From the NCBI GenBank assembly GCA_016748015.1, contig JAAOMT010000697.1:665145-729144 (forward strand): a DNA stretch of 64,000 nt, read 5' to 3'. The notes beneath the pieces were generated by a model. The model had not been told where the DNA came from. It searched no databases and was given only the letters and a program-made list of their open reading frames with translations. This document shows positions 18,909 to 59,542 of the stretch, piece after piece. The translations under genes were made by a program, and so were the position numbers. This stretch comes from Geosiphon pyriformis. Its lineage: Eukaryota; Glomeromycota; Glomeromycetes; Archaeosporales; Geosiphonaceae. Position 1 is the stretch's first letter. Each line of letters begins with the position of its first letter.

Positions 18909-19564
18909 TATTACTCATAGAATATAGGAAGTATATTAGCATATAAATTAGCCAATCAGAAGTAGCCATAGTAAATGTGGAATTTCAGGATTCCTCTTAA
19001 GAGAAATCGCAGAATTCTAAGAATTTCAGGATTTTCATACAAGAAATCACAGGATTCCAGAATTTCAGAATTCTTCTTAAAAAGAATTACAGGATTCCAG
19101 GAATTCCAGGATTCCTGGTGTAAAAAATTGAGAAATTAAGGAATCTCAATTATGTATATATAACAGTAGTGCTAGAAGTAGAAAGAACAGAATCTTTTAG
19201 TTAAAGACTTTTCAGTTTAGATCTGATCTAAGCAACCTTCTATTTCCAAATATCAATAAATAATTATTCATTATCTCAATTCACTTTCCACTATCAATAC
19301 TTTATGTTAATAGTAATTGATACTTAACCACACTGGAACAATAACTCTTGATCATAACTATTAATAGAATACTAACTTGTATGCTTTTGTTTATTTCTTT
19401 ATCTTTTTTTATTTTCTTTATTTCTTTTGTATTTCTTGTTGGTTGACTAATTGATTAAGGATTAAAGTGCTGAGTTATAGATGTCATAGGAACTGGTAAA
19501 AGACCCATGAAACAAGGGTAGAACACTCATAGATTTGAAAATAGCTTATCAGGAGGATTATCAG
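18909..19564 (+). mobile_element. Element 2, 5' LTR, left part
   Basis: First 656 bp of a family-A LTR, starting TATTACTC (decayed TGTTACTC). It breaks off at 19564 and resumes at 29819-30035; together 873 bp, against 871 for the 3' LTR at 38422-39292. Contains the GAATTCCAGGATT-type repeats (about 18985-19110), a TATGTATATATA box near 19151 and an ATCAATAAATAATTATT signal near 19255. Element A is inserted at the break. Confidence 0.88.
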
Positions 19565-19813
19565 TATTACTCATAAAATATAGGAAATATAGTATTATTA
19601 GTCAGTAGATATTAGCCAATTAGATGTAGATATAGTAAATGTGGAATTCCAAGATTCCTCTCAGAGGAATTGCAGGATTCCAGGAATTTCAGAATTCTTT
19701 AACAAGGAATTGCAGGATTCTAGAATTCCAGGATTTCTCTCATCAAAAATCGCAGGATTCCAAAAATTCCAGGATTCCTGTCACAAGGAATTAAGGAATT
19801 GAGGAATCTCAAA

Positions 19814-19826
19814 TATGTATATATAG
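19814..19826 (+). promoter_or_regulatory. TATA box in the LTR
   Basis: TATGTATATATAG just downstream of the U3 repeats. The same box occurs at the equivalent place in the other family-A LTRs (for example near 19151, 29194, 38666, 52497 and 58876). Position and conservation make it the likely Pol II TATA element. Confidence 0.7.
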
Positions 19827-19895
19827 CAGTAGCATTAAAAGCAGAAAAGACAGAATTGACATCAAGAATTCTTAGCTTAGTTACCATAATCTTCA

Positions 19896-19909
19896 AATAA
19901 ATAATTATT
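19896..19909 (+). promoter_or_regulatory. Putative polyadenylation signal in the LTR
   Basis: AATAAATAATTATT, about 80 nt after the TATA box and conserved between LTR copies. As the LTR acts both as promoter and terminator, an AATAAA-like signal here is expected; assignment is by position only. Confidence 0.45.
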
Positions 19910-19931
19910 CACCATATTAAACTTATTTTTC

Positions 19932-19956
19932 ACTATCAACACTTCATGTTGATAGT
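19932..19956 (+). repeat. Inverted repeat with 5-nt loop in the LTR
   Basis: Ten-bp arms ACTATCAACA and TGTTGATAGT around loop CTTCA. The same structure occurs in all the family-A LTRs; in two of them the loop is the reverse complement (TGAAG). Confidence 0.9.
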
Positions 19957-20437
19957 AATTGATACTTAACCACACTGGAACAATAGCTCTTGATTATGGC
20001 TATTGACAAAATACTAACTTGCAAATCACCTTGGCTTATTTTTTATTTTTTTTTTTATCTTTTTTTATATTTTTTTACTTCTTTATTTTCTGTAATTTTG
20101 TTATTGTGCACTAACCAATTGATTAAAAGTGCTGATTACTAATGTCAAGGATTGCTTGGTAAAAGACCCCTGCAAGTGGGTAGAACACATACAGAAAATA
20201 TGGATTACTTACCAGAGGATTGCTGGCCACCAAGCCGAAAAAAAAATTGACAGACTTGCGAGTCTGAGAAGTTATAGATAAAACAACTATTGAATCTCTG
20301 TCTATTATACAAAGAACTCATTTGGAAAACCTTCAGATACCAACCATTTAAAGATATTATCAACAACACAAGTAGTTTTGAGCACTAAGTTACGGGTTTG
20401 ATATTTGACCTGAGACCCCAAATAATTACTTGTAACA

Positions 20438-20483
20438 TTTGGTGCTTTCTGTGAGGTATAATCCTATAGAGAACCAGCACCAA
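20438..20483 (+). promoter_or_regulatory. Primer-binding region forming a hairpin
   Basis: Directly after the LTR: TTGGTGCT at 20439-20446 is the usual place of a primer-binding site (TGG complementary to a tRNA CCA end). It is matched perfectly by AGCACCAA at 20476-20483, with a second inner stem (CTGTG with TATAG, two G-U pairs) around the conserved loop GGTATAATC. The same fold is present in elements 2, 3 and 4 with paired base changes. The tRNA that would match was not identified. Confidence 0.75.
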
Positions 20484-20499
20484 CAAACACCATCCAAAA

Positions 20500-21180
20500 A
20501 TGGCAGAATCAAAAAATATAGGAGCAAACTATTTAGGATTTACAAAATCCTTATTTCAATACTATTGTCAACATTTGGGATTAAACCCCAATCATATATC
20601 TGCCAAATCAGCCTTTAATTTCTATGTTAATAAAAAGATTTTCTTTTTGTTAGGAACACTAGTAAATACAGAATCAGCAAGGGAAACTTTCTACAGAAAA
20701 TTAATTCAAAACACCAACCTACTAACAAATCATAATTTTGCATCTATTATTACTGAGATTAACAAAGAAATTAAACATCACACCCAACAAAGATATCTAA
20801 TTACATATGCTAGCAAAGGCAAAGGAAAACTACAAACACCAGCAGTAACTCCCAGAAAAATACAACTAGCTACTTGAAAGAAGACAAGGGTTGAATTACC
20901 AACCAATCCATCTTATCACTATACACCCAGAAGCATCATCAACATTTTATCAACAGGCACGTCCACATCAAATGCGACATCAGCATTTGGACAATTCCCA
21001 TTCTAAAGTAACCAAAGAAAAACAGAATTATTAAGACCATACAGTGAATACTTCGAAGGATTTAAATCACGATTACCAACGCTCTTAGGAATTTGATCAC
21101 TGCTGTCTCAACCAGACTTTGAAACCACTACCCCATGAGAACTATCTGAAGAAAAAGAGGAAGAAGAATCGGAAGATTAA
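20500..21180 (+). pseudogene. Element A gag N-terminal part
   Basis: Starts with ATG (MAESKNIGANYLGF) and is open to a TGA at 20875 (copy 2 has Trp there), then continues in frame with more stops to 21180. Homologous to the uninterrupted 197-codon ORF of element 4 (59559-60152). Mostly helical and polar; no named domain. Ends in an acidic Glu-rich stretch before the capsid region. Confidence 0.7.
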
Positions 21181-21204
21181 GAATTTATTTACCAGAACCT
21201 GATT

Positions 21205-22500
21205 ATGGAAAGCCTGGAAATAGAAACACCAAATTTTCAAACTCAGCAAAATCTAAATCTAGAAAATTCAGAAATTGAAACTTCGAATATTCAACTACTG
21301 CCAAATCAGAACAATCAGAACTCCAATCTAATTAATCAACTGGACTTATCTCCCATTATTGTCATTAATCTACCACCAGTTGAACCGATTGGCCAGCCAC
21401 TACAACAACCACACCAGCAGATTCAACAACCACTAGTACCACTTCAACAACCACTTCAACCCAACTTAGATCCAATGGCATACGCACCAATAGCCAAACT
21501 TGAGAAATTCACTGGTGAAGAGGACGATGCTTAAGCCTGGATCAATGACATCACCAAAGCAATCACCACCAATAACTAGAATGATACTAGAACCATGCAA
21601 GTCATTCTCTATTTTCTTAAAGACACGGCAGACTCTTGGTATCACAGTTTAGCCCAGAAACCTCAAAACTTTAATGCCTTCAAATTAAAATTTTTGAGGT
21701 ATTTTAGTAATAACAACAGCATCAACTGCTTGGCAAGTACTTTCACTACTATCAAACAAAAAGACACAAAAGCAGTCACCACTTACTTGAGATGCTTCCA
21801 TAGAAATCTGTGCCAAATTCAGGCAATCCAAGCTGACTACTTTATAGCACCACAGATCTTGAACCAATTCATCCAAGGATTATGCAGTAGCATTTTTTAG
21901 TAAGTATGTCCAATACATCCAGTTGATCTCCCAACCGCTATGACTCATGCCAGAGATTTTGAAGCTGCCAAGTTAGAAGCTAGCCACGCCCAAGCTGTGA
22001 ATTTAGTAATGAACAGATCATCTAACCTGGATTTCAAGCTAAAACAATTCAGTGACAACATCAATCAGAAATTAGAGAGCTACTTAGTTGACAATTGTGT
22101 AATTTATCAGCCACTCCAATGATGTAATGATTTAGGAAATGCAAATTGTTTTCAGAATCAATCATGTTTAAGATCATCCATTAATCAGTCACGACAGCCA
22201 GAAATGTGTGTCTGCTACAACTGTGATAAACAAAGGCATATTAGAACAAACTGCCATACTTATAGCAACACACGATTGGAAAATCATTATCGAAACCCCG
22301 ATTGCTGGTTTCAGACTTCAAATTACCAATCCAATCAAGAGCAATATCAAAACACTTACCTGTCTATGACGCAGCAACCAATTTATCAGCCAACAATATA
22401 TCAACTACCAATTTATTAGCTGCAGCCACCAAAAATTTATTAATCACAGCCACAAGTTATTTATTAGCCACAGCCTCCAGTAATCTATCAACCCCAACAA
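21205..22500 (+). pseudogene. Element A gag: capsid-like domain, zinc knuckle, YQP-rich tail
   Basis: Structural protein of the retrotransposon particle. Order: Gln/Pro-rich linker (21400-21470), AYAPIAKLEKFTGEED, then the retrotransposon gag (capsid) domain with WYHSLAQKPQNFNAFK and FTTIKQKDTKAVTTYL (21600-21900), a helix-rich segment, a zinc knuckle CYNCDKQRHIRTNC (22213-22254; the usual Gly is changed), and a tail of IYQP/IYQL repeats. In-frame stops replace Gln (TAA at 21532, TAG TAA at 21898) and Trp (TAG at 21578). Confidence 0.85.
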
Positions 22501-22699
22501 GTTCAAACGCCGCACCAAAACTTAGCTACAATGACGTCAGAAAACCTGAGATCCAGAATCACTCAAAACTGGAGATCAGCAATGGTTGTTTATCAACCAA
22601 TCCCTAGTTCATCAGACCAGTGATCAGAATTTCATCAGCAGAATTCGGGTATTGGTTCTACCCAAAACCCGAATTCCCAGAACTATTTAAGTCTCCTGG

Positions 22700-23420
22700 T
22701 TATCCTAGAAGACATCACCTTTAACAACCCAGAACTCGATCAACAACCAACAATACTTACCAACAACATCTCACCAGCAATTGTTACCAATAACGAGTTG
22801 TTAACAGCCATCTTTCTGTTTGAATTCGAAAAAGTTATGTGAGTTCCCTTATTTAGTGAAACAGCTCTAGAAGAAAAACTTATTACTGCCATGTACACCA
22901 ATGTGAAAGTTAATGGCCACTTTATTAAGTTAATTCTTAACAGTGGTTCAGCAAACAGCATTATCACATGACAACTCATGAATCAATTAGGTCGCTGAGT
23001 TGATTGAGCTGTCAATGCTAGAATCATTACTGTCGATGGCGCCACAAAAACACCTATTGGTAAAATTGATGACTTCCTGATTGAAGTTAATGACATCATT
23101 ACTCCCATCAAAGTTTTGGTGATGGAAGCAACCCAATACCAAGCACTAATGGGCAATAATTGGTTGTCTAAAAACAATGCCATCCTCGACTGAACCACAC
23201 AAGAGCTTCAGTTCAGCCAAAATGGCCAACACACATGAGTACCAGCAATGTGTGGCCATTTCAAATCTAACCATGTCACAACATCAGCACCACTTATCGA
23301 CCTCAAAAAGAAAAAACTAAAGCCTACTTGGGAGGTGTATTAAGCATTGTGAGCTGATGTCGACCACAACAAACTGCCACCAATACTTGCCTGGGATGAC
23401 AATAACAATAGAAAAGAGGA
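22700..23420 (+). pseudogene. Element A aspartic protease
   Basis: Retropepsin-like protease that cleaves Gag-Pol. The active-site segment reads LILNSGSANSIIT where copies 2 and 4 have LILDSG and DSGS, so here the catalytic Asp has become Asn. Downstream is the flap/alpha region ..ATKTPIGKIDDFLIEV.. and ..EATQYQALMGNNWL... Several TGA codons occur where other copies have Trp or Arg. It follows the gag tail in the same frame, consistent with one Gag-Pol frame. Confidence 0.8.
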
Positions 23421-23639
23421 ACAAAGAAAGAATTTATCTGTGGAACCACTATCAATGCTTGAACTGATAACAAAGACCACTATAAGCTACCACTAATACT
23501 ATCATGGGATAACAACCCAAAGGGAAAGCAAAAAGAGGAACTTATCTGGGAAATGAACGACCTGACCTGGACCAACAATGATGAAAGGGAACTGATACCA
23601 AGCTGGGAATAGAAAAAAAGCAACCAAGAGAAAGGAAAA

Positions 23640-24350
23640 GTGAAAGAAAAAGAGCCACTGCCAACAAACCCATATACTTCCTATCAAATCACAACACCAC
23701 AACAATTTACCTATCGCCAATCCAAACTAGTGTGTATTAATTGTGACAAGAAATTGTCATCAATGGGCACATGCTATGGCAATAACAAAGAATATCAGAC
23801 AGCAACCAAGTTCTATTGCCATACATGCCTTATTAAATGCTTTGGAAGACCAAAGCGAGTGGAAAAATGAGATAATACATCATGTTTAGCCTGTGGCAAA
23901 ACTCTTCTCGACAAAGGAATGTGGAATGACATTTCTGGGAAAGGAGGAACATGCAATGTTTCCTGCCAATACACAATTCTCATCAGTGACTGGGTCAAGA
24001 AAGGGACACCAATAGAAGCCACCTGGAGAAAAGCTGTATAGTGATTGGACAGTTGTCCACACAACAATGATAAATTATGGTAAATGGCAATCACCAAAAT
24101 TGAAGGTGCATCACCAGAAGAAATCAGGACAATTAAAAACAACCCACCAAAACCCATTGAGCTTGACTGGAACGCAAAGCCAGTCATAAATTTCCTGAAA
24201 CCAGAAAAGTTCCATAAACACTACCAAAACTTGGCACTCACTAGAACAATGACTAGCACAGTTAAATACAAGACTGTGTCACTATTGTTTAATTCCCAGT
24301 GACTTTGAATATTGTGATGATTGTGACCTTATTTACAATCCACCACCACG
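23640..24350 (+). pseudogene. Element A cysteine-rich module between protease and dUTPase
   Basis: Three cysteine-pair clusters: LVCINCDKKLSS with YCHTCLIKCFG (23725-23850), SCLACGKTLL..TCNVSCQ (23880-23970), and a second unit LCHYCLIPSDFEYCDDCD followed by LIYNPP. The last runs across a frameshift near 24250-24310. CxxC spacing suggests zinc-ribbon folds. All four family-A copies keep these cysteines. I know no named domain for it; nucleic-acid or protein binding is a guess. Confidence 0.65.
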
Positions 24351-24351
24351 C

Positions 24352-24588
24352 ATGATCTACACAATCCCCAAAGAGAAAGAACCAATTAGCAGCTGTGCAT
24401 CGAAGTCAAAATCACTGTTCAATCCCAATTCAAACTCCAACAATGACAACAATGAAAATAATAGTTCCAGCTCCATTCAAAATGACAATAACAATAACAA
24501 CAATATCAACTCAGATTCAAACTCCAACTCAAACTATGAACAATATATCATGCTTCCTGACCTCACCAAAGAACAAAAACTGAAATAG
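24352..24588 (+). CDS. Element A Asn/Ser-rich linker
   Basis: Low-complexity segment rich in Asn, Ser and Asp (about 24415-24540) between the cysteine module and the dUTPase, ending LPDLTKEQKLK. The stop at 24586 replaces a codon that is Trp in copy 2 (KWFSNNNE). Probably a disordered linker of the same polyprotein, not a separate gene. Confidence 0.5.
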   Translation: MIYTIPKEKEPISSCASKSKSLFNPNSNSNNDNNENNSSSSIQNDNNNNNNINSDSNSNSNYEQYIMLPDLTKEQKLK

Positions 24589-24612
24589 TTCAGTAATAAT
24601 AATGAAGGTATT

Positions 24613-25398
24613 ATGCCAGAACGCGCACATGATACTGATGCCGGATTTGACTTGAGGTATCCAGGAAAAGATGCCATCAAATTAGAACCACATTCGTGCA
24701 CTTGCATTGATCTGAAAATAATACTGGAAATCCCAGCAACAACAATGGTTCAACTAGCATTTCAGAGTAGTTTAGCAAAAAGAGGGATTAATATAAGAGG
24801 AGGAATAATTGACACAGAATACATAAGAAATATTATTGCCATGCTACAAAATGACTCAGAAAAAGCCTATATTATAGAGCCAAATGTAAAGATAGCACAG
24901 ACAATATTCTTACCATTGGTTAAAATAGCTCAGTTAGTACCAGTGAGAAATAGGGAAGAGTTAGGAATAACAGCAAGAGGGATACAGGGATTTGGGTCAA
25001 TGGGTAGAATAGATGTACTAGTTAATATGATGGAGAAAAAAATTGTTGGCCAAGGAAAAATTATCTCAACCAGTCAAGTAATTTTCATTCCACTATATGA
25101 CCAATATCTGGTAACAATAGAAAGGAAAGTAAAGGACCAAGCACAAATTTTTGAAGCAGAAGCAAGTCTTTGTGAATCAGAAGAAATTGGACTCATCAAT
25201 CTCCACATACCAGCCAAGAACTATAGCCACATCAAAATTTCTGTCTACAACAACACCAGAAATGTTGTCAATATACCAGAAGGAACCACAATTGGATATT
25301 TGACCACAGAAATAGAGGATCAACCACCAAGTACCATTCCAGACTTTTCACAACTTTGTGGATATGTTGATATCACATCACAAACAATATACAGATAA
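24613..25398 (+). CDS. Element A dUTPase domain plus C-terminal beta-type module
   Basis: Trimeric-type dUTPase, which hydrolyses dUTP to dUMP and pyrophosphate and so keeps uracil out of cDNA (family knowledge). 261 codons with no stop, the longest open stretch in this element. Motifs in order: I HDTDAGFDL; II SSLAKRGI, with the usual Arg changed to Gln; III GGIIDTEY; IV KIAQ; V GIQGFGSMG. Residues from about 155 form a second module (..GLINLHIPAKNYSHIKI.., PEGTTIGYLTTEIEDQPP) that leads into RT. Flanked upstream by the cysteine module and downstream by RT in the same frame, so it is a polyprotein domain. The copy at 34088-34837 has the same layout. A host dUTPase gene is unlikely because of this context. 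Confidence 0.9.
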   Translation: MPERAHDTDAGFDLRYPGKDAIKLEPHSCTCIDLKIILEIPATTMVQLAFQSSLAKRGINIRGGIIDTEYIRNIIAMLQNDSEKAYIIEPNVKIAQTIFLPLVKIAQLVPVRNREELGITARGIQGFGSMGRIDVLVNMMEKKIVGQGKIISTSQVIFIPLYDQYLVTIERKVKDQAQIFEAEASLCESEEIGLINLHIPAKNYSHIKISVYNNTRNVVNIPEGTTIGYLTTEIEDQPPSTIPDFSQLCGYVDITSQTIYR

Positions 25399-25470
25399 AA
25401 TGAATGTTACTTGCTCCAACCAGAACAGTTGAGACAAATGAACATAGAAAACTTAGATCCACTCTAACAT

Positions 25471-26330
25471 ATGCAACTTAAAATGTTGCTCAACAATTTC
25501 AACAACATCTTTGCCAGTGAAAATGAGTTTGGCCGAACTGACATCATCCAGCATCAGATCAAGACTGGAGATGCAATGCCAATTAAACAAAGAGCATACA
25601 GAGTGCCACCAGCCAGCCATGAGATCATTCATCAAGAGATAAACCAAATGCTTAACAATGGGCTAATTCAATCATCAATGAGCCCATGGTTGTCACCAGT
25701 GGTACTTGTCCATAAAAAGAATGAAAAAATCTGATTTTGTGTGAACTACAGAAAACTCAATGGTATAACTAGTGGAGACAACTATCCAACTCCACGAATA
25801 CAGAAATTATTCAACACTTTCAGTAGGAACAAATGGTTATCAACATTAGACTTGGACAGTGGTTACTGACAAGTAGCCATGAATTCAGCCAACAAAGAGA
25901 AGATGGCATTCACTACTAGAGAAGGGAATTTCGAATTTGAAGTGATGCCATTTGGCTTAACCAATGCTCCAGCTACCTTTCAACGGCTAATAGAAATTGT
26001 TTATACTGACTTATTATGGAAATCAGTAGTTGTATACTTGGACAACACCAATGTATTTTCAAAAACATTTGATGATCTTCATCATCTTCAACAAGTGTTT
26101 GAAAAACTAAGAAGAGCAGAACTAAAGTTAAATGCAACAAAGTGTTTTTTTGGCAAGACAAAACTAAAATTCTTGGAACACATAGTCAGCAAAGACAGCA
26201 TCAAAACAGATCCAGAGAAAATAGAGATAGTAAAGAACTCTCCAGTGCTGACCAATATGACAGAACTGAAATCATTCTTGGGATTTGCCAGCTATTATCG
26301 GCATTTTATCAAGAACTTTTCCAAGATAAT
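25471..26330 (+). pseudogene. Element A reverse transcriptase
   Basis: Copies element RNA into cDNA. Sequence: QHQIKTGDAMPIKQRAYR at the N-terminus, SPWLSPVVLVHKK, FCVNYRKLN, STLDLDSGY, FEVMPFGLTNAPATFQRL, then the catalytic box. This reads YLDN (26035-26046) where Ty3 RTs have Y-x-D-D, so one catalytic Asp is Asn. TGA codons at 25732 and 25867 replace the Arg or Ser before FCVNY and the Trp after GY. Thumb region FLGFASYYRHFIKNFSKI is intact. Confidence 0.92.
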
Positions 26331-26379
26331 ACAGCCATTCAACCAACTGCAAACCAAGAATACAAAATATGAATGGACA

Positions 26380-26835
26380 GAAAGTCAACAAAAAGCTTTT
26401 GATATTCTGAAAAGAAAGCTTATTCAAGCTCCAGTACTGATCTATTCAGATCACAACAAACCATTCATTATTACCACCAATGCATCTGGCCAAGCATTGG
26501 GAGCAGTATTATCTCAGAGAGAACCAAACAACAGAGAACATCCAGTAGCATATGCCAGCAGAGGTTTAACACTAGCTGAAAAAAACTATGGAACACCAGA
26601 ACAAAAACACTTAGTGATATACTGAGCAGTCATAAAATGGAAAGAATACTTGAGCCAGAAGTTTGAAGTATACACAGATCACAAAGAATTAACATCACTT
26701 CAAAAACAAGAATTTGGAGATGGAAGACAGTCAAGATGGAAAATGGCACTCACACCATATAATTATACTATACATTATAAAAAGGGAAAAGACAACAGAA
26801 ATGCTGATGGTTTGTTGCGAATGAGACAAATCTAA
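26380..26835 (+). pseudogene. Element A RNase H
   Basis: Degrades RNA in the RNA-DNA hybrid. FIITTNASGQALGAVLSQ carries Asn where the first catalytic Asp should be (family form T-D-A-S). VYTDHKELTSL and the C-terminal KKGKDNRNADGLLRM are present. A TGA at 26623 replaces Trp (YWAVIKWKEYL in family form). Ends at a TAA after MRQI, where the link to integrase follows. Confidence 0.88.
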
Positions 26836-26896
26836 GAACATTTTAACCCAAAATATAACAAAACCAGAACAATACCAACAAAAAATATAACAAAAG

Positions 26897-28300
26897 ATGA
26901 ATATACAAAAATATCAACAACTGCAACATTATATAAACACTCAACAGTTTAAGGAGAATTTATCTCAAATGGAACAAAAGAGTATCAAACAACAATCAAA
27001 ATATTTTATCACTCACCAAAATATACTGTATCAGAAAAATAGAAAAGATTTAGAGCAACCAACCAAAGTAATTACAGAGTCAGAAAAAGAGACAATATTA
27101 TTCAACATGCACTCAAATCCAACAGCAGGACACTTTCACAAAGAAACAACCATAGAAAGAACCAGAAAAAGATACTATTGGCCATTAATATATCCAGACA
27201 TCATCCAATATGTTCAAAATTGTGATGCTTGTCAGCAAAAAAGAGGTACAAAATCCAGTGAACCATTAAGACCAATCAAAGTGGGACAACCATTCGACCA
27301 TGTTGGAATTGATTTAGTCAGATTATTAACAATCACCAGTGGAGGAAACAAGTACATAGCAGTAGCCATGGACTATCTCACTAAATAGTCAGAGACAAAA
27401 GCAATTCAAAGAGCGGATGCAGAATCTGTTGCCCAATTTGTTCATCAAGATTTAATTTGTCGACATGGATGTCCAAAAAAATTATTATCAGACCAAAAAA
27501 CTTATTTTGTGAACAGAACATTAACAGAATTGAGCCAAAAATTCGGAATTAAGAGACCACTATCATCACCATACCATCCACAAACCAATGAATTAGTCGA
27601 AAGATTCAACAGAACATTGTGTGAAGCAATAGCTAAACTCAGCCAAGAAAACCAGAACGATTGGGATTTGTTAATATCATCAGTACTATTTGCTTATCAG
27701 ACAATGAAGCAAGATACTACACAAGCAACACTATTTGAATTAGTATATGGTAGAACAGTAACACTACCAGTGGAAATAGAAGTCAGCACATATCCAACTG
27801 AACTAATAACAGAAGAAAATTTCAAAAACACATTGTTGAGAAGAACATATGACTTAATAGAAACATTAGAAAACAAACAACAAAGAGCAGCTAATAACAT
27901 ACAAAGATCACAAGAGAAACAAAAAAAAAGACATGATAACTAACTACCAGATAAACCAGTTGAATTCAAGATTAAAGACAAAATACTACTATATTGTACC
28001 AAAGTGGAAAAACAATGGAGTAGAAAATTTGACCCCAAATGGGATAGACCATTTCACATAGAAGAAATTCTAGAAAATAGAGCTTACAAATTAAGATTGA
28101 ATAACAAAATCTTGACCAAAGCAGCACATAGAGATTGATTGAAACCATACCACCATATAGCATTATCATCCACCAGTAATATTCTACAATTAGGAGTACA
28201 GAGAATACTAGTCCAACCAGATGAGATTCCACGAGATTTGAAACCAATCATTATCATTAACAACAACACATCCAATTGATTGACAAAAGAATATATAAGA
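26897..28300 (+). pseudogene. Element A integrase
   Basis: HHCC zinc domain HSNPTAGHFHKE..CDACQQK, then the DDE core: GIDLVRLL (first Asp), LLSDQKTYFVN (second Asp) and ELVERFNRTL (Glu). The three catalytic acids are all present. C-terminal KFDPKWDRPFHIEEIL and AHRD..LKPYHHI match the GPY/F-type end of Ty3 integrases; no chromodomain follows. A TAG at 27388 replaces a Trp and a TAA at 27943 a Gln. Otherwise this is the least damaged catalytic domain in the element. Confidence 0.9.
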
Positions 28301-28303
28301 ACA

Positions 28304-28957
28304 TGGTTGACACAACAGAAGAGATCAGAAAAATAAAAATTACGGACAATATCTATTCACTAGTCCAACAAATTTTTCAATTAATCTAATACCAGAAGAT
28401 GGAAATTAAAATCAATCAACAAACCATTCGTTACAAAAATACGGCAAAGATACCACAAAACAAAGCACAGAAAAGACTTGAAAATGTTGTTGACAAGATT
28501 ATGACCAAGATAAAATTGGCCATAACAGAACAACAAATAGTCGGATTACACCAAGAACTTACCAGAGAAACATGGACTTGGTGGACACAACAATTTCCAA
28601 AAAACTATTGTTATTTCTATTTGGAACAACACATAAATATCCAAAATTTGTACACCGACAAAACAAAATGGTTATTTGACACAATAATACTGAGACAACT
28701 AGAACAATTTGTGGAAAAGAACAATCTAACCACACAAGCTCGAGCCATTTACTGGCTATATATGAGATTTCAAAACCGACCAGAAATCTTACTCAACACA
28801 GCAATGGATACAGTTACAAGTAATCAATTGAGAAAAATGACCAACGCCTAATTTGAAGAACTACAAACTAAAATAACACAAGTAATACTCGAAAAAGAAG
28901 TTCAGAAAATAATTCAAGAAGGGGAATTAAAGGAGTTAGATTTTAATGGAGCTTAAT
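28304..28957 (+). CDS. Element A post-integrase ORF (ORF3), unknown function
   Basis: About 217 codons from an ATG (MVDTTEEIRKI) to TAA, broken by TAA at 28388 (Gln in copy 2) and a TAA at 28849 replacing Gln. The main open part is 28399-28851. Helical and charged, with Trp-rich ETWTWWTQQFPKNYCYFYLEQ, LEQFVEKNNLTTQARAIYWLYMRFQN, and a Glu/Lys-rich end. No signal peptide, membrane helix or known domain. Homologues occur at the same place in elements 2 and 5 and, more distantly, in family B, so it is a conserved component of these elements. Candidate roles (particle, targeting, host counter-defence) are only guesses. Confidence 0.65.
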
Positions 28958-28960
28958 ATT

Positions 28961-28975
28961 AAAAGGAGGGAATAA
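28961..28975 (+). promoter_or_regulatory. Polypurine tract of element A
   Basis: AAAAGGAGGGAATAA immediately before the TGTTACTC start of the 3' LTR. Position and purine content fit the plus-strand primer site. Confidence 0.85.
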
Positions 28976-29818
28976 TGTTACTCATAGAATATAAAAAATA
29001 TAGTATTATTAATTAGTAGATATTAGCCAATCAGATATAGACATAGTAAATATAGAATTCCAAGATTTCTCTCAGGAGAATTGCAGGATTCCAAGAAATT
29101 GCAGGATTCCAGAATTCCAGGATTTCTCTCATCAGGAATTGCAGAATTCCAGAAATTCCAGGATTCCTGTTGTAAGGAATTGAGGAATCTCAAATATGTA
29201 TATATAGCAATAATATTAAAAGCAGAAAAGACAGAATTAACACCAAGAATTCTTAGCTTAGTTACCACAATCCTCAAATAAATAATTATTCACTATATCA
29301 AACCCACTCTTCACTATCAACACTTTATGTTAATAGTAATTGATACTTAACCACACTGGAACAATAGCTCTTGATCATGGCTATTGACAGAATACTAACT
29401 TGCAAATTGCCTTGGCTTATTTCTTATTTTATCTTTTATCTTTCTTTATATTTTTTTACTTCTTTATTTTCTGTAATTTTGTTATTGTGCACTAACCAAT
29501 TGATTAAAAGCGCTGATTACTGATGTCAAGGATTGCTTGGTAAAAGACTTCTGCAAGTGGGTAGAACATGTACAGAAAATATGGATTACTTACCAGAGGA
29601 TTGCCAACCACCAAGCCGAGAAAAAAATTAACAGACTTGCGAGTCTAGGAAGCTACAGATAAAACAACTATTAAATCTCTGTTCATTATACAAAGGACTC
29701 ATTTGGAAAACCTTCAGATACCAACCACTTAAAGATATTATCAACAACACGAGTAGTTTTAAGCACCAAGTTATGGGTTTGATATTTGACCTGAGATCCC
29801 AAATAATCACTTGTAACA
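28976..29818 (+). repeat. Element A, 3' LTR
   Basis: 843 bp, beginning TGTTACTC and ending TTGTAACA. Matches 19565-20437, with one U3 repeat unit fewer. Its inverted repeat has loop CTTTA (about 29323-29327). Confidence 0.93.
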
Positions 29819-30035
29819 TTGGCCACCATGCTGAGAAAAAAATTTGATGAAATTGCGATTCCGGGAGGCTACTGAACAACTATTGAATCTCTGTTTATTA
29901 TACAAAAGACTCAACCAAAACCTTCAGATAAAAACAAAGTACCAATCTTACTAATATCATTCACCAGACTAATCATTAAGTACCAAGTTATGAGTTTGTT
30001 ATTTGCCTTAAGACCCCAATTAATCACCTGTAACA
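29819..30035 (+). mobile_element. Element 2, 5' LTR, right part
   Basis: Continues the LTR interrupted at 19564: TTGGCCACCATGCTGAG corresponds to CGGCCACCACACTGAG in the 3' LTR at about 39078. Ends CCTGTAACA and is followed by the hairpin primer-binding region of element 2. Confidence 0.9.
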
Positions 30036-30036
30036 T

Positions 30037-30081
30037 TTGGTGCTTCTTGTAAGGTATAATTTTACAAAGAACCAGCACCAA
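30037..30081 (+). promoter_or_regulatory. Element 2 primer-binding hairpin
   Basis: TTGGTGCT and AGCACCAA pair perfectly; the inner stem TTGTAA with TTACAA is also perfect, around the loop GGTATAAT. Relative to element 3 the first inner pair is T-A instead of C-G, a paired change. Confidence 0.75.
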
Positions 30082-30099
30082 TTACATTCATCCAAAAGT

Positions 30100-31744
30100 G
30101 GCAGAATCAGAAAGAATAGGAGCAAACTATTTAGAATTTGCAAAATCCTTATTTTAACAGTACAGCCAATGATTAAGATTAAACAATAACCATTTTCCAG
30201 CAGAATCAGTCTTCAACTTCTACATCAATGACAAAATCACAGACTACTTAGGAGGAACAATTAACATTGAATCTGCAAGAGAAAATTTCTATACAGAATT
30301 ATTCCAACATACCAGCTTACCAAGAAACTACAGTTTCACACCAATCATCAGGGAAATAAACCAAATCATTGAAAGATATACATAACAACAATTTCCAATC
30401 ACTTATGCAGACAAAGGAAAGAGAAAACTACAAATACCAATAGTGACATTAAAAAGAATCCAACCACCCACTTGGAAGAAAACTAGAGTTGAATTGCTAA
30501 CAAACTCATCATACCACTATACATTAGGAAGTGTCATTAACATCTTATCAACAGACGTGTTTACATCAAATGCAACATCAACATTTGGACAACTTTCATT
30601 TCAAAGTAAACAAAAGAAAGCAGAATTACTAGGAACTTATAACAATTATTTTGAAAAATTTAAATTGTGATTGCCAATGCTATCAAGATTCTGATCACCA
30701 TTACCTCAACCAGATTTCGAAAATGCAAGTCTTTAGGAAATAATGAAATCAGAAGAGGAGGAAAAAAAAAAAGCTGAAGATCAAAAATTTACTTATCAAA
30801 ACCCGATTCCAAAAAACCTAGACATTGAAACCCTAAACTTTTGGACTTAGCAAGATCCAAATTTAGAAAATCCAGAAATTGAAACTCCAAATTTTCAAAC
30901 TTAGCCAAATTGGAATGATCGAAACCCCAATATTAATAATCAACAACACTTACTTCCAGAAATTGTCATCAACCCATCACCAGTTGCTTTATAACAACAG
31001 CCACTACCACAACTCCAAATTCAATTATCACTTTAACCACCACAACTCCAAATTCAATTATCACTTTAACCACCACAACAAATAAACTTGAATCAAATAG
31101 TGTATGCTCCAATAACAAAACTCGAAAAGTTTACTGGCAAAGATGACAATGCCCAAGTATGGCTGAACGATATGGGAAAAGTCATTGCAGCCAATAGATA
31201 AGATAATGCCAAAGCCATATAAGCCATCTCCTACTTTCTCCAGGATATTGCCAACTTATGGTATCAAAGCTTAGCCAACAAACCCCAGGATTTCAATGCA
31301 TTCAAGCTTGCATTACTACAATATTTCAGCAATAATAATAGTATTAATCATCTAGCAAACACTTTCACCACCATCAAACAAGAAGAAAATAAAGCAGTTA
31401 CTATTTATTTAGAATGCTTCTACAGAAATCTGTGTCAAATTCAGGCAATCCAGGCTGATTATTTTACAGCGTCACAAATCCTAAATCAATTCATTAGAGG
31501 CCTATGCAGCAGCATATTCCAGCATGTACATCCAATGTATCCAATAAACCTTCAAGCTGCAGTTACAAATGCTAGAGATTTTGAAACAGCTGAACTCAAA
31601 GCCAACCACATCCAAGCTGTTAATCTAATAATGAATGGATCATCTGAATTGGATTTCAAATTAAAACAATTCAGTAATTCAATTAATCAGAAATTAAAAG
31701 AATACTTAGCTAACAATCAGGCAATTTATCAACCTCTACAATAA
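30100..31744 (+). pseudogene. Element 2 gag (N-terminal part and capsid)
   Basis: Frame starts GTGGCAGAATC (ATG in element A) and runs through the N-terminal region with stops, the open piece 30443-30670, a Gln/Pro linker, then the capsid domain with WYQSLANKPQDFNAFKL and FTTIKQEENKAVTIYL (31260-31420). The open piece 31535-31744 covers the C-terminal helical part. Same TGA after the first region (30692) as in the other three copies. Confidence 0.75.
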
Positions 31745-31833
31745 TGCAATAATCAAGGAAACGCAAATTGTTTTCAGAATTAGTTATGTCCATCATCCTC
31801 AATCAATCAACAGTGGCCACAAAAGATGCATGT

Positions 31834-32150
31834 TTGTCACTACTGTGGTAAACAAAAACATTTGAGGATTGACTGCAGGTTAAGAATAGATAACCAATGA
31901 TCAGAAAATCAATATCAAAACCCCAATTGCTGGTTTCAAACTCCAAGTTACCAAACCAACCCAGTACTATATCAACTGACTTATCTGCTAATGACACAAC
32001 AGCCAATATATTAACCATCTGTATATTAACCTCTAGTTTATAAACTGCAGTTATCAGTAATATATCAACCACCACAGCCACAAATAATTTATCAGGCATC
32101 TGCAATTCAAACATCACCATCAAATCCAGCTCAAATAACATCAGAAAACC
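31834..32150 (+). pseudogene. Element 2 gag zinc knuckle and YQP-rich tail
   Basis: CHYCGKQKHLRIDC (31834-31876) is a CxxCx4Hx4C zinc knuckle with the Gly kept, which would bind element RNA. Followed by repeated IYQP-type units with stops (TAA at Gln positions). Confidence 0.8.
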
Positions 32151-32175
32151 CTAGATTAAGACCCAAAACTGGAGA

Positions 32176-32900
32176 TTGGCAATAATTGTCTACCAACCAA
32201 TTCCCAGTTCATTCAACCAGCCATCAGGATCACACCAGTGGAGTTTAAGAACTGGGTATACTCAAAACCTGAGTTCCCAAAACTATTTAAGTCTCTTGGT
32301 TACTCCAAAAGACACTCCATCCAATAACTTGAAAACAAATCAGAAATTACTTACCAGCAACATACTACCAGCCACTGTCATGGAAGATGAGTCACTCGCA
32401 GTTATATTCCCCTTCGAAATTGAGGACTCAACATCTATGCCCTTGTTCAGTGGAGCTGCACTCAAGGAAAAACCAATTACTGCTATGTACATAGATGCCA
32501 AAGTTAATGATCACTTTATCAAACTTATCCTAGATAGTGGATTAGCAGACAGTATTATCATTAGGCAACTCATGAATCAATTAGGTTGCTGAGTTGACCA
32601 TGCTGCCAGTGCTAAAATTATAACAGCTGATGGAGCAACAAAAACTCCAATTGGTGATATTGATGATCTACCCATTGAAATCAATGGCATCATAGTACTC
32701 ATCAAAGTTCTAGTAATAGAAGCAATGTAATACCAGGCTTTGGTTGGAAATGACTGGCTGTCAAAAACCAACGCCATGCTTAACTGGAACACCCAAAAAT
32801 TACAGCTCAGCCAGAACAGTCAACACATATGTATACTAGCCACGTGTGGCCATTTCAAGACCACTAACACATTAGCACTGCTCATTGAGTTTGAGGAAGA
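32176..32900 (+). pseudogene. Element 2 aspartic protease
   Basis: Active-site LILDSGLADSIIT near 32527-32565 keeps the catalytic Asp. Stops: TGA at 32590 and TAA near 32728. Downstream NDWLSKTNAML matches the same region of element A. Confidence 0.78.
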
Positions 32901-33189
32901 AGAAAAGAAACCTACCTGAGAAGTCTATCAAGTGTTATGGACTGAAAAAAACCACAACAAGTTACTACCAATACCCTCCTGGGATGACAACGGGAAAGGA
33001 AACAGAAGGAAAAACTTACCTGGAATTCCAACCAAGCTTGGAAAACCAACAACAACTAAGAAGAGCTAATAAATTGGGAGTAGGAGAAAAATGCAAAAGG
33101 AAAAAGAAAAGAAAAGAAAAAAGAACCAATATTACTCACCACCACTACTTATAATCACTATACTTACATTACACCACAATGATCTGCCT

Positions 33190-33840
33190 ATTGTTGACCA
33201 AAGCTCATATGTGCCAATTGTGACAAGAAATTGTTATCAATGAGTGCATGCTGTGGCAACGACAAAAAATACACAATGACAACAAAATTCTATTGCTGTC
33301 CATACATCCTTGACCACTTTGGAAGACCGAAACAAATTAGAAAGTAAGATAACAAACCATGCTTGGCTTGTGGAAAAACTCTTCTAGATGAAGGAATATG
33401 GAACAACATTCCTAGATAAAAAAAAACATGCAACAAATTGTGTCAGTACATGATTCTCATAAGTGACTGGATAGAAAAAGGAACACCCATAGAAGCTGCT
33501 TGGAGATGAGCAGTCAAATGTCTGGACAGATGTCCACATGATAATGACAAAATCTGGTAAATGGCACTTGCCAAAATAGAAAGAGCATTACCAAAAGAAA
33601 TAAAAACAATTAAAAATAATTTACCTGAACCTATAAAACTTGACTGGGACCCAGAACCAGTTATAAATCTCCTAGATCTAGAACAATTTTATAAACACTA
33701 CCAGAAATTAGCACCCATTAGAAAGGAACAAGAACAACGGTTGAAAGAAATAAATACAAGACTATGTAACTATTGCTTAATTTTATGTAACTTTTAATAT
33801 TGTAATGAATATGATCTCATTTACAATCCACTAATCTGCA
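33190..33840 (+). pseudogene. Element 2 cysteine-rich module
   Basis: Same cysteine pairs as element A: ANCDKKLLS, CLACGKTLL..TCNKLCQ and CNYCLILCNFQYCNECD then LIYNPP. The span 33561-33797 is open (ALAKIERALPKEIKTIKNN) and is clearly homologous to 24084-24240 of element A. Confidence 0.6.
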
Positions 33841-34087
33841 TGATCTACATAATTCCAGAAGAGAAGGAACCAATTAGCAGCTGCACATCAGAATTGGAAT
33901 CAACTTGCAATCTTGATTCAAACTCTGACAATGACAATGATAAAAACAACAGTTTCAGCTCTGCTCAATGTGACAATAGAAAATATAGTGATTCAAATCC
34001 GATTTAAACCCCAAAACATATATTTCACTTCCTGATCTCACCAAAGAACAGAAACTTAAATGGTTCAGCAATAATAATGAAGATATT

Positions 34088-34837
34088 ATGCCAGAACACA
34101 TGCATGATACTAATGCAGAGTTTGATCTGAGATATCTGAAAAAAAATCTCATCAAATTGGAACCCCATTTGCACACTTGTATTAATCTCAAAATAGCACT
34201 GAAAATTACAGCAACAACAATAGTTCAGTTAGCATTTAGAAATAGCTTAGCCAAAAAGGGAATCAACATCAAAAGAGGAATAATTGACACAGAATATGTA
34301 GAAAATATCATTGTAATGCTACAAAATGACTCAGAAAAGACATATATTATAGATCTAAATAAAAAGATAGTACAGGCAATATTCCTGTCTCTGGTTAAAA
34401 TAGCTCAATTAGTATCAGTAGAAAACAGAAAAGAATTAGGGATCACAGCTAAAAAGATACAGGGATTCAGATCCACAGATAGAATAAATATACCAGTAAA
34501 TATGGCAAAGAAAGAAATTATTGACAAAGGAGAAATTATTTCCACCCATCAACCAATTTCTATTCCACCATATGACCAGTACATGGTAGTCATAGAAAGA
34601 AAAGTAAAAGATCAGATACAGATTTTTGAAGCAGAAGCAACACTTTGTGAATTAGGAAAGATCGGATTAGTCAATCTACACATACCAGCCAAAAACCACA
34701 GCCACATTAAAATCTCTATTTACAATAATACAAGAGACATTATTAAGATACCAAAAAAAACCACCATTGGATACTTAACCACAGAAATTGAAGACCAGAC
34801 ACCATTTCAGACTTTCTACAACTGTGTAGATATGTGA
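34088..34837 (+). CDS. Element 2 dUTPase domain plus C-terminal module
   Basis: 249 codons without a stop, the longest open frame in element 2. Motifs: I HDTNAEFDL (Asp to Asn and Gly to Glu changes), II RNSLAKKGI (Arg kept), III RGIIDTEY, IV KIVQ, V KIQGFRSTD. Motif I and V changes make it probably inactive. C-terminal module ..GLVNLHIPAKNHSHIKI.. and TTIGYLTTEIEDQ as in element A. A frame end at 34835 leads to RT. Confidence 0.85.
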   Translation: MPEHMHDTNAEFDLRYLKKNLIKLEPHLHTCINLKIALKITATTIVQLAFRNSLAKKGINIKRGIIDTEYVENIIVMLQNDSEKTYIIDLNKKIVQAIFLSLVKIAQLVSVENRKELGITAKKIQGFRSTDRINIPVNMAKKEIIDKGEIISTHQPISIPPYDQYMVVIERKVKDQIQIFEAEATLCELGKIGLVNLHIPAKNHSHIKISIYNNTRDIIKIPKKTTIGYLTTEIEDQTPFQTFYNCVDM

Positions 34838-34929
34838 ATATTACATCTCAAACCATATATAGATGAGAAGAATGTTATTTGCTCTAATCAGAACAATTAG
34901 AACAAATGAACATGGGAAACTTAGATCTA

Positions 34930-35760
34930 TTACAACATATGCAGCTCAAAATGTTACTCAACAATTTCAATAATATTTTTGTCAGTGAAAACAAATTTGG
35001 CAGAACTGATATTATTCAACATTAAATCAAAACTGGAGATGCAATGCCAATTAAACAGAAAGCATACAGAGTACCACCAGCTAGCCATGAGATCATTCAT
35101 CAAGAAATCAATTGGATACTTGACAATAGGCTAATTCAGCTATTAATGAGTCCATAGTCATTACCAGTGGTACTAGTCTGGAAGAAGAATGGAAAAATCC
35201 ACTTTTGTGTAGATTATTGGAAGTTGAATGGAGTAACCAAAAGAGATAGCTATCTAATGCCAAAAATCCAAAAGCTGTTTGATGCTTTTGGAAGAAAGAA
35301 ATGGTTTTCAACATTAGACTTAGACAGTGGTTACTAACAAGTAGCCATGAAACCAGAAGACAAGGAGAAAACAGCTTTCACAATTCAGGAAGAAAATTTT
35401 GAATTTGAAGTAATGCCATTTGACTTAATGAATGCTCCAGCAACATTTCAATAGCTTATGGAAATTGTTTATACTGAGTTACTGTGGAAATCAGTAGTTT
35501 TTTACTTAGATAACACCAATGTGTTCTCAGAGACATTTGATGATTATTTGCATCATCTTCAACAAGTATTTAAAAGATTGAAAAGAGCAGGATTGAAATT
35601 AAATGTGACCAAGTGTTTTTTTTGGCAAAACAGAGTTGAAATTTTTGGGACATGTCATAAGCAAAGATGGCATTAAAATAGATCCAGATAAAATTGCAAT
35701 AGTAAAGAACTTTTTAGTACCAATCAACTTGACAGAATTGAGAGCATTTTTGGGATTCGC
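34930..35760 (+). pseudogene. Element 2 reverse transcriptase
   Basis: KTGDAMPIKQKAYRVPPASHE, STLDLDSGY, FEVMPF, NAPATFQ, and the catalytic box YLDN at 35503-35514, the same Asp-to-Asn change as element A. Several TAG/TAA stops and a frameshift near 35640 (the frame of 35458-35676 passes to that of 35636-35899). Confidence 0.88.
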
Positions 35761-35819
35761 TGGATATTATCACTGTTTCATCAAAAACTTTTCTAAACTG
35801 GTCCAGCCACTTCATTACT

Positions 35820-36300
35820 TACAAACTAAGAATGTAAAGTATGAATGGACAGAAGTTCAACAAAAAACATTTGACACACTGAGAAGAAAGCTTATTTAAG
35901 CTTTAGTGTTGATGTATCCAGATCACAACAAACTATTTATTATCACCACTGATGCATTAGGCCAGGCATTGGAAGCAGTACTATCACAGAAAAGACTGGA
36001 TGGAAGAAAGTATTCAGTAGCTTATGCCAGTAGAAGCTTAAGTCCAGCTGAAAAGAACTATGAAACCCCAGCACTAGAACACTTAGCTATCTATTGGGCT
36101 GTTATTAAGTAGAAAAAATACTTAAGTCAAAAGTTTGATGTATATACTGATCACAAAGAATTGACTTCAATTCAGAAGCAGGAATTTGAAGACGACCACC
36201 ATGTCAGATAGAAAATAGAACTTTTACCATTTAATTATACAGTACATTACAAAAAGGGAAAAAAAAATGGAAATGCCAATAGTTTGTTGTGAATGAGACA
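35820..36300 (+). pseudogene. Element 2 RNase H
   Basis: FIITTDALGQALEAVLSQ keeps the Asp that element A has lost. AYASRSLSPAEKNYETPALEHLAIYWAVIK and YTDHKELTS follow. TAA at 35897 and TAG codons at Trp or Gln positions interrupt it. Confidence 0.82.
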
Positions 36301-36339
36301 AATTTAAAAACATTTTAACCCAAAAATATAACAAAAGAT

Positions 36340-37735
36340 GAATATACAAAAATATCAACAACTACAACATTATATAAATACCCAATTGTTTAAAGAGAAA
36401 TTATCTTAAAAGAAACAAAGGAACATAAAACAACAATCAAAATATTTTATCAACTGTTAAAATATACTTTACTGGAAGAACAGAAAAAATTCAGATCAAC
36501 TAATTAGAGTAATCACAGAACCAGAAAAAGAGACAATATTATTCAACATGTACTCAGATTCAATAACAAGACATTTTCATAAAGAAACAACCATGGAAAG
36601 AACCAAAAAAAAATATTATTGGCTATCAATGTATTCAGACATCATCCAATATGTTCAAAATTGTGATGCTTGTCAGAAAAAAGAAGGAACAAGACCCAGT
36701 AAACCATTAAAACCAATCAAAGTGAGACAACCATTTGATTATATCAGGATTGACTTAGTTAGATCATTAACAATCACTGGTAGAGACAACAGATATATTG
36801 CAGTAGCCATAGACTATTTTACTAAATAACCAGAAGCAAAAGCCATTCAAAGAACAGATGCAGAATTCATTGCCGAATTTATTCATCAAGACTTGATATG
36901 TTAACACAAATGTCCAAAAGAACTATTATTAGATCAAGGAATTCACTTTGTAAATAGAACATTGGCAGAATTAAGTCAAAAATTTGGAATAAAAAGACCA
37001 TTATTATTACCATACCATCTACAAACAAATGGACTAGTTGAAAAGTTTAACAGAATATTGTGTGAAGCCATTGCCAAAATCAGCCAAGAAAACCAGGACG
37101 AATGAAATTTAATTATACCAACAGTATTATTTGCTTATTGGACAATAAAGCAAGACACTATACAAGCAATACTATTCAAATTAGTATATGGTAGAACAGC
37201 AACATTACCAGTTGAGATAGAAGTCCAAACCTATCCAACAGAACCAATAACAGAAGAAAATTTCCAAAGAACATTTTTGAAAAGAACATATGACTTAATG
37301 GAAACACTAGAAAACATATGGCAAAAAGCAGCTGATAACATCCAAAAGTTACAAGAGAAACAAAAAAAAAGACATGATAACCAACTACCAAATAAATTAG
37401 TTAAATTCAAGATTGGAAACAAAGTACTTTTATATCATACTAAAGCAGAAAAACAATAGAGTAGAAAATTTGACCCCAAATGGGATGGATCATTTCACAT
37501 AAAAGAAATTCTTGGAAATGAAGCTTATAAATTAAGATAGAACAACAAAATCTTAGCCAAAGCAGCATATGGAGATTGACTAAAACCATATTACTATATA
37601 GTATTACCATTTATCAGTAATATTCCACAATTAAGAATACAGAGAATACTAGTCCAACCAGATGAGATTTCACAAGATCTGGAACCAATTATAATTATTG
37701 GACCAAACATGTAATATTAAACAAAAAAAGAGAAT
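36340..37735 (+). pseudogene. Element 2 integrase
   Basis: HHCC segment ITRHFHKE..CDACQKKEG; core RIDLVRSL, LLLDQGIHFVN and GLVEKFNRIL supply Asp, Asp and Glu. C-terminal KFDPKWDGSFHIKEILGNEAYKL. Interrupted by TAA at about 36826 and other stops; open pieces are 36548-36829 and 37277-37459. Confidence 0.85.
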
Positions 37736-37743
37736 ATAAAAAC

Positions 37744-38407
37744 ATGGTAGACATAACAGAAGACTTCAGAAAAATGGAAATCACTGACAACATCCACTTA
37801 CTAACACAACAACTCTTCCAATTAATTCAACAACAGAAGATAGAAATTACTATCAATCAACAAACCATTCGATACTGAGATACCAAAAAGATATCCAAAT
37901 ACAGAAATCAAAGAAAAACAGAAACCACTATTAACAAAATGATTCTGAAAATAAAATTGCAATAGAAGAACCAACAAGTGTTACCACATATTAAGAGTTG
38001 ACCAAAAAAATTTGGAAATGATGGATACACAAATTTCCAAGAAACTTTTGTTATTTTCACTTGAGATAACACTTAAATATTCAAAACTTATACATAGATA
38101 AAACAAAACAATTATTTGACACAATAGTACTGCAACAACTGAAACAATTTGTGGGAAAGAACAATTTGATTACACAAGCCAAAGCCATCTATAGACTATA
38201 TATGGGATTCCAAGACAGACCAGAAATCTTAATCCAGAATTGGACTCTATTACAATTAACCAAATGGACAAAATAACCAACACCCAATTTGAAGAATTAC
38301 AGAACAATATAACCTAAGTAATTCTCAAAAAAGAAGTTCAAGAGATACTCAATGACAGAGAGTTAGAGTTAAGAAATTTGAGAGATCTTGACAGAGCTCA
38401 ATATTAA
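37744..38407 (+). pseudogene. Element 2 ORF3
   Basis: Homologue of the element-A post-integrase ORF, starting MVDITEDFRKMEI and continuing ..LTQQLFQLIQQQKIEI... Frameshifts and stops in the middle (for example in the WTWW region) make it non-functional. Confidence 0.65.
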
Positions 38408-38421
38408 AAAAAAGAAAATAA

Positions 38422-39292
38422 TATTACTTATAGAATATAGGAAGTATATTAGCATATAAATTAGCCAATCAGAAGTAGTCATAATAAATGTGGAATTCTA
38501 GGATTTCTCTTAAAAGAAATCACAGGATTTCAAGAATTTCAAGATTCTTGTACAAAGAATTACAAGATTCCAAAATTCCAGGATTTCTCTCAAAAAAAAT
38601 TGCAGAATTCCAGAAATTCCAAGATTCCTGGTGTGAAAAATTGAGAAATTGAAGAATTTCAATTATGTATATATAGCAGTAGTGCTAGAAGTAGAAAAAA
38701 CAGAATCTTTTAGTTAGAGACCTCTCAGTTTAGATCTGATCTAAGCAACTTTTTATTCCCAAATATCAATAAATAATTATTTATTATCTCAATCCACTCT
38801 CTACTATCAACATGAAGTGTTGATAGTAATTGATACTTAACCATACTGGAACAATAGCTCTTAATTATGGCTATTGATGGGATACTAACTTGCAATTGCT
38901 TTTGTTTATTTCTTTATCTTCTTTTATTTTCTTTATTTCTTTTGTATTTTTTGTTGATTGACTAATTGATTAAAAATTAAAACACTGAGTTACAGACGTT
39001 ATAGGAACTGGTAAAAAACTTGTGAAACAAGAGTAGAACACTCATAAATTTGAGAATAGCTTACCAAAAGGATTACCGGCCACCACACTGAGAAAGAAAT
39101 TCAACAGAATTGCAATTCCAGGAGACTACTAAACAACTATTGAATCTTTGTTCATTATACAAAAGACTCAACCAAAATCTTCAGATAAAGACAAAGTACT
39201 AATTTTATTAACATCATCTATTAGACTAGTTACTAAGCACCAAGTTATGGGTTTGTTATTTGCCTTGAGACCCCAATTAATCACTTGTAACA
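38422..39292 (+). repeat. Element 2, 3' LTR
   Basis: 871 bp, starts TATTACTTATAG (decayed TGTTACTC) after a purine-rich tract, ends CACTTGTAACA. Its inverted repeat (38803-38827) has loop TGAAG, whereas the 5' LTR of the same element has CTTTA. Confidence 0.92.
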
Positions 39293-53099: not shown

Positions 53100-53100
53100 T

Positions 53101-53144
53101 TTGGTACTCCCTGTAAGGTATAATTCTACAGAGAACAGCACCAA
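53101..53144 (+). promoter_or_regulatory. Element 3 primer-binding hairpin
   Basis: Starts TTGGTACT (one change from TTGGTGCT), ends AGCACCAA. Inner stem CTGTA with TACAG is perfect, loop AGGTATAATTC. Confidence 0.7.
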
Positions 53145-53149
53145 CCATA

Positions 53150-54700: not shown

Positions 54701-54798
54701 CACAATGACACAATAATTCTGGAAACCCAAATTGTTTCCAGAATCAGTTACATCCATCATTATCAACCAATTAACAGTGACAACAAAAAATGCATGTT

Positions 54799-55130: not shown

Positions 55131-55227
55131 GCTAAGATTAACCCAACAAAGCTGGAGATTGTTAATGGTAATTCATCAACTGATCCCCAGTTCTTCCACA
55201 TAATCAGCAAGATCTTGACAATAGAAT

Positions 55228-59496: not shown

Positions 59497-59497
59497 T

Positions 59498-59542
59498 TTG
59501 GTGCTCCCTGTGAGGTATAATCTTATAGAAAACCAGCACCGA
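59498..59542 (+). promoter_or_regulatory. Element 4 primer-binding hairpin
   Basis: TTGGTGCT start and AGCACCGA end, inner stem CTGTG with TATAG (two G-U pairs), loop AGGTATAATCT. Same fold as elements A, 2 and 3. Confidence 0.72.

Follow-up and report, generated by a model that had tools for sequence, protein, structure and literature searches.

The 64,000-nucleotide stretch of Geosiphon pyriformis DNA analyzed here (the window; contig JAAOMT010000697.1) contains a Ty3-type retrotransposon in which a dUTPase domain (DUT) lies between the protease and the reverse transcriptase (RT). The host is a member of the Glomeromycotina, Archaeosporales; the initial annotation had rightly supposed Glomeromycotina, but its pointer to Rhizophagus finds no support. 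The domain order is gag, protease, cysteine-rich module, DUT, a second domain that we call D2, RT, RNase H and integrase, and the family is present in many copies. We favor, as a probable reading, a dUTPase module that belongs to a high-copy Ty3 (Metaviridae) family with many decayed members, in which DUT would keep uracil out of the cDNA and D2 would be a non-catalytic domain with the dUTPase fold.

All five dUTPase motifs that the initial annotation had read in the focal copy are found in order in the translation: I (DTDAGFDL, 24631-24654), II (SSLAKRG, 24766-24786), III (GGIIDTEY, 24799-24822), IV (KIAQ, 24889-24900) and V (GFGSMG, 24988-25005). The Pfam profile PF00692 matches 24613-25398 with an E value of 1.6e-19 (70.4 bits; curated cut-off 22) and a second window copy, 34088-34837, with 1.1e-13 (51.5 bits). 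The assignment of all of 24613-25398 to dUTPase stands up to near 25005, where the dUTPase proper stops; the rest of the open reading frame (ORF), 25024-25332, is D2, which had been missed. When 20401-28800 is translated with stops as X, gag, protease, dUTPase, RT and RNase H share one frame and integrase lies in another. RT and RNase H precede integrase and long terminal repeats (LTRs) lie on both sides, as in Ty3 elements.

The focal copy is decayed, with an in-frame stop shortly 5' of the ORF and another at its end. It differs from the majority of the related copies compared at several positions, and in motif II it carries Q where R is found in 66/97 protein pieces and 27/30 loci. A single polyprotein with protease and cysteine module on one side and RT on the other, as originally proposed, is correct in its domain order and broken by stops in this copy; another copy, L007, has an uninterrupted frame that runs from protease through the cysteine module, dUTPase, D2 and RT into RNase H. 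The cysteine-rich module, about 200 amino acids long in both L007 and the window, is perhaps zinc-binding. The L007 module has no significant Pfam match (best E 0.15), and a Yippee-Mis18 identity for the L010 module (E 0.012, under the cut-off) was not accepted as real. By eye, the C..C module that Ty3 elements without DUT carry between protease and RT is shorter.

The dUTPase is a feature of the family rather than a capture at one locus, as had been argued from the window, and it is found in many copies across the genome. A PF00692 search gave 3181 first-look candidates, and all 150 that were scored exceed the Pfam cut-off; a D2 search gave 2707, with 150/150 scored places positive. From 6000 first-look candidates for RT, 150 were scored and 30 loci fetched. 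A dUTPase lies upstream of RT in 15 of these 30, the position predicted for other Ty3 copies (two have only about 75 amino acids of it), and in none of the other 15. By tblastn, D2 is found in 13 of the 15 DUT-bearing loci. We rejected, for this genome, the idea that D2 is a generic protease-RT linker of Ty3 elements: the 15 RT loci without DUT have no D2 match, and in six of them that were translated neither DUT nor D2 could be recognized by eye.

Copies with DUT cluster together in the RT tree (98/97), and so do those without it (100/100). Because six environmental DUT-bearing proteins branch beneath both Geosiphon groups and an environmental protein, P0041, groups weakly (89/63) with the Geosiphon DUT-bearing copies, it is possible that the dUTPase was lost in the DUT-less group; this tree is midpoint-rooted, with unsettled bootstrap values, environmental relatives only and no DUT-less outgroup.

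DUT is under purifying selection, and so is D2 between close subfamilies. The ratios of nonsynonymous to synonymous change (dN/dS) start from 32 copies, in 18-32 of which a given domain could be placed, those with less than 70% of its length in frame being dropped; 6 copies of subfamily A, 6 of B and 2 of C were compared. Synonymous divergence (dS) is saturated in many A-B, A-C and B-C pairs, and in all pairs for RT between subfamilies, and the ratios between A, B and C are means of unsaturated pairs. Between five B1 and five B2 copies (25 pairs), dN/dS is 0.11 (0.07-0.18) for DUT and 0.09 for D2. Over all B-B pairs it is 0.23 for DUT (15 pairs) and 0.15 for D2 (3 pairs), and RT within B gives 0.13 (3 pairs). 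For window copies 1 and 2 the values are 0.21 and 0.16.

These values bear on whether the dUTPase is a functionless passenger that drifts with the element. Many copies have stops or damaged motif positions, and within subfamily A, where dN/dS is 0.36-0.62, DUT stands at 0.40, as such drift would predict. Between subfamilies, however, third-position differences in DUT (0.55-0.62) are about twice those at first and second positions (0.24-0.33), the B1-B2 ratio is low, and the almost transition-only differences within subfamilies fit damage after insertion. We regard a passenger as very improbable. We give still less credence to a recent capture of the domain from the Geosiphon genome. A potential donor exists, since a short query and a motif pattern located a separate host dUTPase gene with introns. 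Its product, however, is 62-72% identical to the yeast, human and Arabidopsis enzymes and only 29-35% identical to the element domains, and because of this low identity the element dUTPase is, as judged from sequence comparison, not a recent host capture. In a phylogeny against host and other dUTPases, as the initial annotation had suggested, the element domains and those from five environmental Ty3 proteins form a cluster (99/96), with P0054 just outside, and four cellular dUTPases form a separate group (98/92); this tree, which carries long-branch warnings, sets the element domains apart from the cellular ones and lends recent capture no support. A search with yeast dUTPase had brought up 150 rows, at 31-38% identity and with none that resembled a host gene, which raised the possibility that the host had lost its own; this was rejected once the gene with introns was found. 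Beside the cellular dUTPases stands P0199, a protein of 988 amino acids with an annotated PF07727 domain followed by a dUTPase. We take PF07727 here to be a copia-type RT; P0199 may represent a dUTPase in the Ty1/copia group, a fusion or a gene-model artefact.

The nature of D2 is the less secure part of the favored reading. Structure comparisons of the D2 model consistently match dUTPase folds, and this suggests a non-catalytic domain of that fold; no dUTPase motif was recognized by eye in the D2 sequences. Several observations weigh against it. The D2 model that gave these matches has a predicted local distance difference test score (pLDDT) of 41, and a DUT+D2 model one of 56; root-mean-square deviations are 3.2-15.5 Å in one set of comparisons and 11-12 Å in another, with Epstein-Barr virus (EBV), and no D2 match reaches an E value of 0.001 or better. 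The first seven residues of the D2 alignment (A2) belong to motif V and might have biased the model. D2 has no significant sequence similarity to dUTPase: after cleaning (33/43 D2 and 97/125 DUT pieces kept), hhalign aligned D2 to the dUTPase alignment with a probability of 0.8%, in a register other than the preferred one, compared with 0.2% for a reversed D2 control. Among 44 D2 sequences scored with a dUTPase hidden Markov model, only P0103 beats all of its 300 shuffles, and its match is its first 20 residues, i.e. the end of DUT; a PDB search with the D2 profile gave no match at E 10. An earlier hhalign value of 99.5% for A2 against the dUTPase alignment (A3) was an artefact, as rows of A3 extend beyond the dUTPase into D2, and a second attempt was contaminated in the same way.

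Selection and distribution supply further points against this view of D2. In the B1-B2 comparison dS exceeds 1 for D2, so that its ratio is approximate. D2 changes fastest across A, B and C (dN 0.58-0.82, versus 0.36-0.38 for DUT and 0.25-0.29 for RT), its dN/dS is 0.30-0.44 versus 0.16-0.23 for DUT in unsaturated pairs, and its first-position changes almost equal those at third positions in A-B and B-C. Two DUT-bearing loci, L031 and L044, have no D2 detectable by tblastn. As a rival reading, D2 could be an unrelated all-beta linker that owes its dUTPase look to a low-confidence model, in which case the element would be a plain protease-dUTPase-RT member with one dUTPase. We consider such a linker unlikely, though well within reason. 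A more specific proposal is a tandem of catalytic dUTPase and pseudo-dUTPase, in which D2, devoid of every motif and under selection equal to the enzyme's between close subfamilies, would be a partner of the dUTPase trimer at RT. This proposal is weakened by the looser constraint on D2 than on DUT between distant subfamilies and by the differing hhalign register, and we place its chances a little short of even. The literature search, made on open-licence articles, turned up no earlier example of a pseudoenzyme that partners the dUTPase of a retroelement.

On the favored reading of a dUTPase module in the Ty3 family, DUT is predicted to hydrolyze dUTP. Freed by the protease or remaining fused to RT, it would turn dUTP into dUMP next to the reverse transcriptase, and little uracil would then enter the cDNA where dUTP is abundant compared with dTTP, for example in non-dividing parts of the mycelium. 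Exclusion of uracil from RT-made DNA is a role discussed for retroviral dUTPases (PMC4531489). D2 could have arisen by internal duplication or by a second capture. Our best guess is that it would act as a non-catalytic scaffold that holds the DUT assembly together or links DUT to RT; alternatively, it might mix with the dUTPase trimer, cap it or tether it to RT.

The placement of a dUTPase between protease and RT is already known in Ty3 elements of fungi and animals. The initial annotation implied that it was new and compared the element with retroviruses only, for which dUTPase positions are given in PMC4531489. According to the excerpts consulted, the same order is described in PosPlaTy3-5 of Postia placenta, in an account that also cites previously reported dUTPase elements from Phanerochaete and Tuber (PMC2864245), in Juno, Vesta and TelKA of bdelloid rotifers, with basidiomycete elements placed alike (PMC5408684), and in giant Gypsy-like elements of planarians (PMC6431247). 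Compared by description, the Postia, Phanerochaete and Tuber elements have hosts in the Basidiomycota and Ascomycota, and the excerpts mention no second dUTPase-like domain. The rotifer elements, likewise compared by description, have animal hosts and no D2 in the excerpted account, and Juno carries an additional zinc knuckle 3' of the dUTPase, whereas the cysteine module of the Geosiphon element is 5' of it. The planarian elements, unlike ours, encode a giant polyprotein with other captured domains. In the excerpted Entomophthora muscae genome report, PF00692 is enriched together with retroviral protease domains (PMC11105155). A term search found no dUTP in the text of a Rhizophagus irregularis transposon paper (PMC8647823), and searches of open-licence literature, largely at the level of listings and not extending to a Geosiphon genome paper, yielded no report of a dUTPase in Glomeromycotina elements or of a retroelement with a second dUTPase-like domain.

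Among environmental proteins, P0041, P0044, P0046, P0175-P0179 and P0054 have a dUTPase that precedes RT, with a protease annotated in most; of the three measured, P0041 and P0044 are 47-56% identical to the Geosiphon element dUTPases and P0054 is 36-43% identical. No D2 was recognized by eye in the linkers inspected. By model comparison, the predicted pair of dUTPase-like domains in one chain would be shared with the double-domain monomeric dUTPase of herpesviruses (for example EBV, 2bt1). The herpesvirus enzymes are described, in the excerpted source, as trimer-mimicking monomers with differently arranged motifs (PMC4531489). In the Geosiphon element the motifs are not spread over two halves; all five lie in DUT, and none was seen in D2.

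The features of the window are listed in Table 1. LTR pairs indicate that element 1 sits nested within the left LTR of element 2. By eye, element 1 is flanked by TCAG and TTGG and an uninterrupted LTR at the same site has CCGG, which fits a 4-bp target duplication changed by transitions. The second dUTPase copy of the initial annotation is borne out by PF00692. The third (57060-57145) is seen only by tblastn, the 28-amino-acid piece alone having no Pfam match, and a different repeat starts near 57151 (self-BLAST, 15532-16504 versus 58126-57151), so that the tail of the tblastn match is doubtful.

Table 1. Coordinates of the Ty3 elements and their domains in the window.
Feature	Position	Strand	Basis
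Ty3 element 1, bearer of the focal dUTPase	19565..29818	+	self-BLAST, junction sequences
Element 1 5' LTR	19565..20437	+	BLAST, 88.4% identity to 3' LTR; boundaries by eye
Element 1 gag (Retrotrans_gag PF03732)	21604..21882	+	E 9e-9
Element 1 aspartic protease	22852..23226	+	PF13975 E 5.5e-8; tblastn range
Element 1 cysteine-rich module, between protease and dUTPase	23685..24324	+	tblastn with L007 module
Element 1 DUT, five motifs in order	24613..25005	+	motifs read in translation; PF00692
Element 1 D2, fold predicted as dUTPase, none of the motifs seen	25024..25332	+	
Element 1 RT	25663..26196	+	PF00078 E 2.2e-23; tblastn
Element 1 RNase H	26374..26760	+	PF17917 E 7.7e-30, PF17919 E 1.1e-29
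Element 1 integrase zinc domain and core, different frame	27074..27580	+	PF17921 E 6.6e-16, PF00665 E 1.7e-9
Element 1 3' LTR, TG...CA; purine-rich tract immediately upstream	28976..29818	+	self-BLAST, junction sequences
Ty3 element 2, split by element 1	18909..39292	+	self-BLAST, LTR comparison
Element 2 left LTR, two parts	18909-19560 + 29821-30035		self-BLAST, LTR comparison
Element 2 dUTPase domain	34088..34474	+	PF00692 E 1.1e-13; tblastn 72% identity
Element 2 D2	34499..34804	+	tblastn 72.5% identity, E 5.4e-48
Element 2 3' LTR	38422-39292	+	self-BLAST, LTR comparison
Third dUTPase copy, stump	57066..57185	+	tblastn E 4.7e-8

Self-BLAST and tblastn place two further family copies in the window. 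The third (52490-57150) is truncated within the dUTPase; the fourth (58785-63641) has a protease and a partial cysteine module, gives no dUTPase match and adjoins an inverted LTR. Direct repeats in 108-bp steps occupy 8292-9221. The LTR pairs of elements 1 (compared as 19567-20439 versus 28978-29820) and 2 differ by 70 transitions to 1 transversion and 112 to 3. Among loci L001-L030 the ratio of transitions to transversions is 24 within A, 9-11 within B1 and B2, 2.4 for B1 versus B2 and 0.8 for A versus B1, and within A, 36% of CpG sites show C/T differences, versus 7-10% in other contexts. The bias could reflect CpG methylation damage or a C-to-T process acting in all contexts; signatures of repeat-induced point mutation are described as undetected in Gigaspora margarita or Mucoromycotina (PMC8647823, in excerpt).

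As far as the literature searched shows, the Geosiphon family extends dUTPase-bearing Ty3 elements to the Glomeromycotina. DUT-bearing and DUT-less Ty3 groups share one genome, which opens gain or loss of the domain to study. Non-catalytic roles have been discussed for herpesvirus dUTPases, according to the excerpted text (PMC4531489), and if D2 is indeed a pseudo-dUTPase, the family would be a natural setting in which to probe functions of the dUTPase fold other than catalysis in reverse transcription.
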